Part shown: piece after piece, positions 26,407 through 29,505 of the stretch | Position numbering within the stretch: the stretch's first letter is position 1 | Layout of the letters: each line of letters starts with the position of its first letter | From: an uncultured Ignavibacteriota bacterium | GTDB lineage: Bacteria > Bacteroidota > Ignavibacteria > UBA10030 > UBA8401 | Length of the DNA stretch: 62,415 nucleotides | Assembly: GCA_903861125.1 (NCBI GenBank) | Contig: CAIOTF010000043.1 | Span: 1-62,415 of the forward strand | Direction: 5' to 3' | Translations under genes and position numbers: made by a program | Notes under the pieces: model-generated | What the model saw: only the letters and a program-made list of their open reading frames with translations | Databases searched by the model: none | What the model was told of the DNA's origin: nothing

Positions 26407-27954
26407 ATGGCTGAAGTTCGACCTGATGAAATAACTGCGATACTCCGCAAACAATTAGCCGGATACGAAAAAGAAGTAGATATCTATGATGTCGGTACCG
26501 TTCTCCAGGTGGGTGATGGTATTGCACGCGTGTACGGTCTTTCCAAATGTATGTCCGGCGAACTCGTCGAGTTTCCGAACGATGTGTTTGGGATGGTACT
26601 GAATCTTGAAGAAGATAACGTCGGATGCATCCTGTTCGGCGATGATACAAAGATCAAAGAAGGTGATACCGTAAAGCGCACAAACCGCGTTGCTTCAATG
26701 CCGGTCGGTGATGCGATGCTCGGACGCGTTATCAATCCGCTCGGTCAGCCGATCGACGGCCGCGGTCCTATTAAAACGGATAAATTTTCGCCGATTGAAC
26801 GGAAAGCGCTTGGCGTTATTCAGCGCCAGCCGGTAAAACAGGCATTGCAGACAGGTCTAAAATCTGTTGACGGTATGATCCCGATCGGACGCGGTCAGCG
26901 CCAATTGATTATCGGTGACCGTCAAACGGGAAAAACGGCTGTTGCGCTCGATGCTATCATCAATCAGCGTTATACTCACACAGAAGAAGCAAAAAAACAG
27001 GGGATCAAACCTGTCTATTGTATCTATGTTGCGGTCGGACAAAAGGGTTCCACGGTTGCACAAGTGGTAAACAAGCTTGAAGATGAAGGAGCAATGGCAT
27101 ATACCACCGTTATCGCCGCAAATGCAAGCGATCCGGCGCCGATGCAGTTTGTTGCGCCGTATTCCGGTGCTACGCTGGGTGAATTTTTCCGTGATAACGG
27201 ACGCGATGCACTTGTGGTGTATGATGATCTTTCCAAACAAGCAGCGGCATATCGCCAGGTTTCACTGTTGCTCCGCCGTCCGCCCGGACGCGAAGCATAT
27301 CCCGGCGACGTGTTCTATCTTCACTCACGGTTATTGGAACGTTCTTCGAAACTGAGCGATGAAGAAGGTGGCGGAAGTCTTACGGCGCTGCCGATTATCG
27401 AAACGCAGGCAGGCGACGTTTCCGCATACATCCCGACAAACGTTATCTCTATTACAGACGGTCAGATCTATCTTGAGCCGAACCTGTTTAATGCCGGCGT
27501 TCGTCCCGCCATCAACGTCGGTATCTCGGTATCGCGCGTGGGCGGTAATGCTCAGATCAAAGCTATGAAAAAAGTTGCCGGCCGTTTGCGTCTGGAACTT
27601 GCACAATATAGAGAACTGGAAGCATTCGCAAAGTTCGGTTCGGATCTTGATAAATCCACGCAGCAACAATTGCGCCGTGGCGCACGTCTTGTTGAATTGC
27701 TGAAGCAGGGACAATATGTTCCGCTGACGGTTGATAAACAGGTCGTGATGATCTATCTCGGCACGAATGGTTTGTTGGATGAATTGCCTGTTAACTCCAT
27801 ACAGCAATTCGAAAAAGAGTTCCTGCAAATGTTCGAGTTGAAGCACAAAGATTTACTTACGTCGATTGCCGAGAAAAAAGACTTATCAGACGATGTGGCA
27901 AAACAAATTCAATCCATTGCAAAAGAATTCATATCAACGTTTAAAGCGGCGTAA
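26407..27954 (+). CDS. atpA: F0F1 ATP synthase subunit alpha
   Basis: 515 residues, full length for the family. Walker A GDRQTGKT (about 170), the catalytic-site Arg region ([17 protein letters not shown]), [28 protein letters not shown], all intact. Non-catalytic nucleotide-binding subunit of F1. The operon continues in the same direction, but the next two genes are not ATP synthase subunits; the gamma gene comes only after them. Confidence 0.97.
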
Positions 27955-27970
27955 ATAAACCGAGGGTGCT

Positions 27971-28180
27971 GTGCCGAACGAAATGAAAATAGTCGGAAGA
28001 AGAAAATCGGCAAAAGTTGACCTTAATGCTGCACGCGGTTTTTTAAAAATGGCGAATATCCTGCGAGCTGGGAAACCATTTTTGCCGAAAGGCGTTCATC
28101 GCTTCAAAACATTTGAGGAGAGCAATGAATGGTCGCTGAAAATGATAACGAGGGATTACAATCCAGGCTCCCGGAAATAG
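27971..28180 (+). CDS. Small partner protein of the adjacent nucleotidyltransferase
   Basis: 69 residues from GTG at 27971 (GAGGG four bases upstream); an ATG at 27983 is a possible alternative. Basic, soluble, no membrane helix. The C-terminal part PKGVHRFKTFEESNEWSLKM fits small Bacteroidota proteins that precede nucleotidyltransferase-fold genes and whose role is not established. It starts 17 bases after atpA and overlaps the nucleotidyltransferase start by 52 bases. Together they look like a two-gene module, possibly toxin-antitoxin-like, placed inside the ATP synthase operon without breaking its direction. Confidence 0.62.
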   Translation: MPNEMKIVGRRKSAKVDLNAARGFLKMANILRAGKPFLPKGVHRFKTFEESNEWSLKMITRDYNPGSRK

Positions 28181-28620
28181 AAGACCTTGTTCACCTGTGC
28201 AGGGAATTGAATACGGCAGGAGCTAGGTATATCGTTATCGGAGGAATGGCGGTCATTCAAGCAGGATTTGCCAGGACAACGGAAGATATCGATCTTCTGG
28301 TGGAAATATCAGCCGAGAATCAAAAAAAGATTCGCAAAGCAATGATGACGTTGCCTGATCAGGCAATTCGGGAAGTTGGGCCTGATGATTTAGAAAACTA
28401 TACCGTAGTGCGTGTCAGTGATGAAATAACGATCAAATTAATGGCAAAAGCCTGCGGTATTTCATATGAAGAAGCAAAAAATGAAATTATTATTGCCGTG
28501 ATTGATGATGTTGAAATTCCGCTTGCAAGTCCGGAGCTGCTGTGGAAAATGAAACAAACAATGCGTGAAAAAGACAAACTTGATTTAACGTTTTTAAGTA
28601 CACTGTTGAAGAAAAAATAA
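28129..28620 (+). CDS. Nucleotidyltransferase-fold protein (AbiEii/DUF6036-like)
   Basis: 163 residues from ATG at 28129, with GAGGAGAG upstream. The motif GGMAVIQAGFARTTEDIDLLV (GG/A...DxD; about residues 40-60) is the nucleotidyltransferase-fold core found in AbiEii-type toxins and related NTases, and IPLASPELLWKMKQTMREKDKLDLTFL resembles the C-terminal metal/substrate region of that group. A GS motif preceding the DxD is replaced by GG, common in this branch. It would transfer NMP to a protein or RNA, or act as a pseudo-enzyme; unknown. It overlaps its small partner by 52 bases and its stop abuts the atpG start directly (TAA then ATG). Confidence 0.78.
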   Translation: MVAENDNEGLQSRLPEIEDLVHLCRELNTAGARYIVIGGMAVIQAGFARTTEDIDLLVEISAENQKKIRKAMMTLPDQAIREVGPDDLENYTVVRVSDEITIKLMAKACGISYEEAKNEIIIAVIDDVEIPLASPELLWKMKQTMREKDKLDLTFLSTLLKKK

Positions 28621-29505
28621 ATGGCAACCTTACGAGAGATACGCCAGCGGATCAGCGGCGTAAAAAGTACACAAAAGATCACCAAGGCCATGAAGATGGT
28701 GGCAGCGGCAAAACTGCGCCGCGCGACCGATGCAATCATTGCCGCACGCCCGTATGCACGGAAGATGCAGGAATTGCTTTCGTATCTTTCCGGACAGGTG
28801 GATGTAACAAAGTATCCGCAGTTCGAAGCACGCGAAGTGAAATCCGTTGCAATTGTTGTTGTAACGGCGGACCGGGGATTATGCGGCGCGTTCAACAGCA
28901 ACATCATCAAAGCGACTGTGAACCATATCAATAAGAATTACGCCGAGATGAACAAAGCGGGAAAATTGAAATTGATCTGCGTTGGCAAAAAAGGATTCGA
29001 TTTCTTCAGCAAGCGTGACTACGAAGTGATCGCAAAGCATATCGGCGTGTACAGTCAGATGAATTTTAACACGGCGAAAACGATCGTAACGGAAATTGTC
29101 GACGGTTTTGTGAATGGCGAATACGATAAAGTGGAGATTATCTCCAACGAATTCAAAAACGCCGTTCAGCAAAAACTGACGATCGGTCAGTTCCTTCCGG
29201 TCGTTCAACAGCAGTCGGCCGATAAAAAATCGCAATCTACGGATTATATTTTCGAACCGACAAGCGACGAAATCGTCTCCGCACTTATACCGAAACATCT
29301 CAATTTTCAAGTGTGGCGCGTTCTGCTGGATTCGAATGCGGCGGAACACGGCGCGCGCATGTCGGCGATGGAAAATGCATCGACGAACGCACGTGACCTT
29401 ATCAAGATCTTACAATTGAATTATAACAAAGCGCGCCAGGCAGCGATAACCAAAGAATTGCTCGAGATCGTTGCCGGTGCCGAAGCGTTGAAAAAAGCAA
29501 GTTAA
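28621..29505 (+). CDS. atpG: F0F1 ATP synthase subunit gamma
   Basis: 294 residues. N-terminal TLREIRQRISGVKSTQKITKAMKMVAAAKLRRA and C-terminal MSAMENASTNARDLIKILQLNYNKARQAAITKELLEIVAGAEAL are the conserved rotor-shaft helices. Its ATG follows the nucleotidyltransferase stop with no spacing and has only a weak upstream GAAG, so translation probably depends on ribosomes finishing the inserted gene. The beta (atpD) and epsilon (atpC) genes are not in this window; a separate atpDC locus is usual in Chlorobi/Bacteroidota relatives. Confidence 0.95.
   Translation: MATLREIRQRISGVKSTQKITKAMKMVAAAKLRRATDAIIAARPYARKMQELLSYLSGQVDVTKYPQFEAREVKSVAIVVVTADRGLCGAFNSNIIKATVNHINKNYAEMNKAGKLKLICVGKKGFDFFSKRDYEVIAKHIGVYSQMNFNTAKTIVTEIVDGFVNGEYDKVEIISNEFKNAVQQKLTIGQFLPVVQQQSADKKSQSTDYIFEPTSDEIVSALIPKHLNFQVWRVLLDSNAAEHGARMSAMENASTNARDLIKILQLNYNKARQAAITKELLEIVAGAEALKKAS

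Follow-up and report, generated by a model that had tools for sequence, protein, structure and literature searches.

The common picture of toxin-antitoxin (TA) modules places them on plasmids or mobile islands, or gives them an autoregulated promoter of their own; AbiE-like systems act in abortive infection. For the nucleotidyltransferase toxin MenT1, one report describes the substitutions D41A, K137A and D152A as each abolishing toxicity (PMC10435456), and another gives T39 as the auto-phosphorylated residue (PMC11375011); for MenT3, the substitution E146Q is described as attenuating toxicity without abolishing it (PMC7205606). A search of open-licence papers for TA modules in ATP synthase or essential operons, and between atpA and atpG, found no such report.

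Here we characterize two overlapping genes, a small open reading frame (ORF) and a nucleotidyltransferase gene (NT), that lie between atpA and atpG in a 62,415-nucleotide contig of an uncultured Ignavibacteriota bacterium, hereafter the window. Handles beginning with G denote genomes (G000 is that of the window) and those beginning with L denote individual loci. We assign a probability of about 0.7 to the reading that this cassette is a TA-type module, composed of a MenT-kind nucleotidyltransferase toxin and a short cognate antitoxin and captured in the atp operon, with toxin activity, antitoxin binding and translational coupling as steps that we infer.

Organization of the locus

The initial annotation had placed an overlapping gene pair between atpA and atpG, directly abutting the latter, and the coordinates agree with this description (Table 1); the arrangement, moreover, recurs in other genomes. 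Its proposal of a toxin-antitoxin-like pair was likewise supported, in the form of a two-gene AbiEii/MenT-like cassette of TA type fitted closely between the atpA stop and the atpG start. Upstream, the operon comprises atpI-B-E-F-H-A, where no gap exceeds 62 nt. The GTG that begins the small ORF at 27971 is preceded by GAGG at 27962-27965, and NT reads from an ATG at 28129 to a TAA ending at 28620, immediately followed by the atpG ATG at 28621. It had also been noted that atpG lacks a good binding site of its own; this lack is no special property of the cassette, since in pair-free close relatives (G002, G006, G007, G008, G016, G018) atpG starts 3-6 nt past the atpA stop. By a rough count, a Shine-Dalgarno-like 4-mer precedes the first start codon in 11 of the 48 ORFs of at least 120 residues in the window.

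Scanning of the + strand between 27700 and 28800 found no sigma-70-like promoter, using a model that does not extend to Bacteroidota-type promoters, and no terminator-like site; an Rfam scan of the cassette on the same strand returned no match. The cassette apparently has no promoter of its own.

Table 1. Features of the atpA-atpG interval, in window coordinates
Feature	Coordinates	Strand	Basis
atpA (ATP synthase alpha), upstream flank	26407..27954	+	ORF; tblastn across relatives
Proposed antitoxin: small ORF of 69 residues beginning with GTG	27971..28180	+	Homologue directly upstream of NT elsewhere; dN/dS
Proposed toxin: NT, a MenT/AbiEii-type nucleotidyltransferase of 163 residues	28129..28620	+	Profile, fold
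52-nt overlap of small ORF and NT, in different frames	28129..28180	+	ORF coordinates
NT codon 103, Lys instead of Asp	28435..28437	+	Alignment of 89 homologues
TAA-ATG boundary where the NT stop meets the atpG start, zero spacer	28618..28623	+	Sequence; shared by G003, G010 and the remnant in G004
atpG (ATP synthase gamma), downstream flank	28621..29505	+	ORF; found in 59/60 relatives searched

A nucleotidyltransferase with MenT1 as its nearest sequence relative

NT is a nucleotidyltransferase of the polymerase-beta fold, nearest to MenT1 by sequence. As a single sequence it matched MenT1 (8an4) with an E-value of 1.5e-5, and a profile of 59 sequences of its family retrieved MenT1 from the PDB at 2.5e-12, with the next match at 0.035, making MenT1 the sole strong PDB profile match of the family. 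The structure model (mean pLDDT 93) also found MenT1 as its top fold match, with a VIA Z of 14.2 over 140 residues; under a rule that counts scores within 1 as tied, TM1012 (13.6) and the antibiotic-modifying enzyme LnuA (13.5) share that position, followed by ANT(2'')-Ia (11.8-12.5), MenT3 (10.0) and MenT4 (8.2), and TM1012, LnuA and ANT(2'')-Ia together span 11.3-13.6. Because MenT1 ties with TM1012 and LnuA, the fold alone fixes neither a toxin nor a substrate.

In Pfam, the window NT stays below threshold for both DUF6036 (PF19502; 20.7 bits against a gathering score of 23.6) and AbiEii (PF08843; 17.3 bits against 22.5), and PADLOC AbiEii models match it weakly (E 2e-4). Among the 59 family members, 42 match DUF6036 and 31 match AbiEii at E <= 0.01. 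Relatives in the NT alignment are 55-77% identical, which excludes chance similarity.

Residues D53, D55 and K142 of NT are retained and align with D41, D43 and K137 of MenT1. D152 is conserved as well; its counterpart in the profile alignment is MenT1 D149 rather than the mutagenised MenT1 D152. T51, invariant in 89 aligned homologues (a set that includes two identical pairs and the members in atp operons), aligns with the auto-phosphorylated MenT1 T39, so that this residue might undergo phosphorylation triggered by the antitoxin, as with MenA1.

The small partner protein

The statement that the partner belongs to no established family agreed with all our searches. The small protein has no family match in Pfam, PADLOC or the other libraries searched, and no sequence match in the PDB, which includes the MenA1-MenT1 complex, or match by Foldseek; neither by sequence nor by Foldseek does it match any antitoxin, including MenA1-like or COG5340-like ones. 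Its model (pLDDT 83) consists of two helices and a short third helix. The ORF looks to be under constraint, given dN/dS values of 0.17 against G004 and 0.21 against G010. To what had been a lone partner without a known family can now be added its standing as the regular companion of NT, from which position we infer an antitoxin role.

Dispersal of the pair among phyla

A scan of contigs identified 130 stretches encoding relatives of NT, of which the best 80 were retained. These 80 loci belong mostly to Verrucomicrobiota, with others from Ignavibacteriota, Acidobacteriota, Myxococcota and further phyla; four (L061, L062, L063, L065) come from genomes used to build the profile. A homologue of the small ORF lies directly upstream of NT in 78 of these best 80, and both loci without one (L068, L129) start at a contig edge. 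The two frames overlap in most loci and lie apart in a few, such as L070. Since relatives of NT from so many phyla carry the small ORF upstream, the two proteins are very probably a TA pair and not part of ATP synthase: the pair is a MenT-like nucleotidyltransferase with a partner from an uncatalogued, widespread family of small proteins.

Both atpA and atpG occur in the fetched DNA of only three of the 80 loci, L061-L063 (G010, G003 and G021); in the other 77, neither was found together with the pair in flanks of up to 5 kb, some of them cut by contig ends. Within the class, the NT subfamily is present in 12 of 391 genomes at E <= 1e-25, five being the atp cases. Six further genomes (L205-L211) show no atp gene in flanks of up to 1.5 kb, and in G043 the pair and atpG are on different contigs. 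Of 67 usable loci, 32 have the next downstream gene in the orientation of NT, and in seven that gene follows at no more than 20 nt, two of these being atp cases; embedding in an operon is therefore no rule of the NT family. In an Ignavibacteriaceae genome (L071:4825-5520) a gene that we take to resemble sucC follows the pair after 18 nt, and the gene preceding the pair presumably resembles an aldehyde dehydrogenase gene.

Occurrence at the atpA-atpG junction of relatives

An intact pair lies beside atpG in five genomes: G000, G003, G010, G021 and G024. In G003 and G010, as in the window, the NT stop and the atpG start adjoin; in G024 they overlap as TAATG, and in G021 they are separated by 30 nt, so that all carriers but G021 have either no spacer or a single shared nucleotide. 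The suggested comparison with the atp operons of relatives, some of which have no gene between atpA and atpG while others share the cassette, also disposes of an assembly error or chimera as the source of this gene order, because several independent genomes (G003, G010, G024 and G021) show it.

The junction was surveyed in 98 genomes of the order with a chimeric atpA/atpG query; 92 were evaluable by hand count among the matches listed (G001, G034, G070, G089, G091 and G092 being set aside), and twelve wider gaps or unlisted cases were fetched and translated. Among these 92, five carry an intact cassette and one (G004) a remnant, and coding inserts occur, among the matches listed, only in these six and in G005. 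No ORF judged to be a gene was found in the gaps of 120-250 nt at this junction in G038, G041, G044, G079 and G080. A conserved ATP synthase subunit or assembly factor was rejected on this patchy distribution.

Several other peculiarities of atp operons came to light. In another order of the class, 12 of the 44 genomes searched, among 16 fetched for wide gaps in the matches listed, have a conserved ORF of about 90 residues between atpA and atpG (L212-L223) that starts with MTTK (once MSQK), matches no Pfam family above cut-off, and is perhaps a clade-specific ATP synthase factor. In G096 (L176), a stretch of about 235 nt seems to split atpG behind codon 28, possibly through an assembly flaw. 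Two copies of atpA-atpG are present in G014 (C24, C30) and in G073 (C112, C245). Inserts of about 120-420 nt with no recognisable gene, perhaps repeats or decayed elements, occupy atpH-atpA and atpA-atpG spacers in L238, L239, L240, L171, L172, L173, L174 and L175.

TA-type modules of other kinds in the atp operon of relatives

At the identical junction, G005 carries a 66-residue ORF (L027:1050-1250), with no Pfam match, followed by an 84-residue ParE toxin (L027:1247-1501; ParE_toxin PF05016, E 1.6e-12) that overlaps atpG as TAATG. At E <= 1e-8, ParE homologues are present in 28 of the order's 98 genomes. In G029, which belongs to the same genus as the carrier G024 and has only 2 nt between atpA and atpG, an MNT-type nucleotidyltransferase and a HEPN protein lie between atpH and atpA (L195/L241; L195 2820-3551; Polbeta PF18765, E 6.7e-15; HEPN PF05168, E 9.4e-21).

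The atpH-atpA and atpE-atpF junctions were surveyed over the 98 genomes, among the matches listed. The three widest listed atpH-atpA gaps after that of G029 (G079, G080, G038) hold no recognisable gene, and the widest listed atpE-atpF gap, about 219 nt in G024, is non-coding. At the control junction ffh-rpsP, no gap above about 125 nt was found in 58 genomes with both sides listed (hand count), a small control with untranslated gaps and mutually related genomes. The atp operon of this single order thus holds three unrelated kinds of TA-like module, which suggests that the recurring element is the operon rather than one TA family.

Alteration of the toxin in the window lineage

Residue 103 of NT is Asp in 88 of the 89 aligned homologues and Lys in the window. 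Across 37 conserved columns the window NT deviates only here, the other 36 being intact; at the same columns G003, G010 and G021 show no deviation, and G024 shows two mild ones. By alignment, residue 103 corresponds to the Asp of VVVDLL in MenT1, the third acidic residue of the polymerase-beta fold, and from the order of motifs it would be motif 2a, equivalent to E146 of MenT3. As E146Q merely attenuates MenT3, D103K may weaken NT rather than kill it.

The sister genome G004, whose atpG is 98% identical to that of the window, keeps the small ORF (94%) and has an in-frame deletion in NT that joins about 28 N-terminal to about 25 C-terminal residues in a frame of 51 residues, still ending in TAA-ATG at atpG. 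Judging from these sequences, the window toxin is probably weakened or dead and the module in the course of being lost. Such findings lend no support to the earlier suggestion that placement in an essential operon could make the pair hard to lose: few of the genomes surveyed have it intact (5/92), a sixth has lost most of NT, a near-invariant Asp is gone from the window copy, and G005, sister of the carrier G003, has a different TA module at the junction.

Evolutionary history

In a host tree built by a quick method from atpA and atpG of 59 genomes, the carriers are dispersed: the sister of G021 is the pair-free G016, that of G024 is the pair-free G029, and that of the carrier G003 is G005 (SH-aLRT 94). 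If G004 is included among the carriers, their state requires at least five changes on this tree; a single gain would entail 13 losses. In the cassette tree, the window, G010 and G003 cluster with the non-atp pair of G043 (100/99), and G021 joins G024 (96/79); in the best tree, a branch with support of 37/0 sets the five atp cassettes and G043 apart from the rest. Neither a clade of the five atp cassettes alone (AU p 0.185) nor a sister relation of the window and G003, as in the host tree (AU p 0.27), is rejected.

Two possible signs of transfer were examined and set aside. Recombination through flanking DNA is not indicated, as nucleotide identity at the 5' end of atpG is no higher between the carriers G021 and G024 than between the non-carrier G016 and G024, in a comparison that excluded misregistered windows (atpA of several genomes; atpG of G003 and part of that of G029). 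G010 had appeared as a candidate recipient, its atpG being 85% identical to that of the window versus 70% for the congener G018; atpB, atpH and ffh trend likewise, and atpA does not. The data are best fitted by several arrivals at this junction, together with losses and the exchange of one TA module for another; vertical descent with many losses is a possible alternative.

A model for capture and decay, and its alternatives

If the cassette is a TA-type module, the antitoxin would be translated first, from a frame overlapping that of NT, and both proteins would be made by ribosomes running on from atpA. An intact NT, such as those of G003, G010, G021 and G024, would add nucleotides to tRNA ends or other RNA and so stop translation, unless bound and blocked by the small protein; atpG, in turn, would be made by ribosomes running on from NT. 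Promoterless modules that land exactly between an atp stop codon and the next start could be expressed by such run-on, with the ribosomes handed on. Selection would mainly keep atpG expressed and let only seamless insertions persist; loss of the toxin would be tolerated if the reading frame to TAA-ATG is preserved, and decay should preferably be in frame. The NT-atpG spacings of the carriers and the in-frame deletion of G004 fit this coupling model, a single deletion being in frame by chance one time in three. More tentatively, and with somewhat less than even confidence, we propose that the atp operon of this order, above all its atpA-atpG junction, may be a recurrent docking site for unrelated promoterless TA modules that depend on coupling, are interchanged, and leave by toxin-first, frame-preserving decay, a proposal drawn from mutually related genomes.

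Three other explanations bear on the same data. The cassette could be a neutral passenger, a TA remnant inserted at random, simply left in place, and now functionless in the window genome. The D103K substitution, the deletion of most of NT in G004 and the existence of close relatives without the cassette would all follow, and we consider this improbable, though worth keeping in view, against the retention of nearly all conserved NT columns in the window, a dN/dS of about 0.2 in the small ORF, and the almost unblemished NT sequences of the other four carriers. An anti-phage module acting by abortive infection and parked in a well expressed operon would suit the weak PADLOC match of NT to AbiEii; its partner matches no PADLOC model, and this alternative appears quite unlikely.

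A further explanation would make the pair an accessory regulator, retained because one of the two proteins adjusts the translation of atpG or modifies a part of ATP synthase. The zero-nucleotide junction between NT and atpG is what such a role would predict, as is a deletion in G004 that preserves both the small ORF and the junction. Most relatives, however, have no cassette, nearly all members of the family (77/80) have neither atpA nor atpG within their fetched and partly contig-cut flanks, and unrelated TA-type modules occupy the same operon; a regulatory function of this kind is very unlikely. The preferred reading remains a TA-type module captured by the operon. The presence of three unrelated TA kinds in one essential, tightly packed operon of a single order would amount to a natural experiment on the entry, persistence and loss of addiction genes in core operons, and on whether an energy-linked operon lets a TA module sense ATP synthase output. 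The analysis has, in addition, exposed a widespread pair of small protein and nucleotidyltransferase whose small partner stands outside the families of the libraries searched.

Comparison with known systems

The ParDE/RelBE-type and MNT-HEPN modules are comparable in location, having members in the same operon of G005 and G029, and differ in that their proteins are unrelated to the window pair. The type IV AbiEi-AbiEii/DUF1814 systems share with NT the nucleotidyltransferase superfamily and, as seen in its weak matches, a resemblance to AbiEii; unlike them, NT falls below the Pfam cut-off and is shorter than the models, and its partner has no PADLOC counterpart. DUF6036, a family whose function is given as unknown in Pfam, is matched by most members of the NT family, the window NT itself scoring below the gathering threshold. 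The nearest parallel is MenA1-MenT1 (Rv0078B-Rv0078A), a member of the MenAT family, in which a protein of antitoxin size similarly precedes a compact nucleotidyltransferase (69 residues in the window, 68 in MenA1); NT keeps the metal-binding DxD, the equivalent of K137, and a threonine, T51, at the position of T39. The window pair departs from that system in a small protein with no detectable kinship to MenA1 by sequence or fold, in the lysine at the third acidic position of NT, and in its residence within an atp operon.
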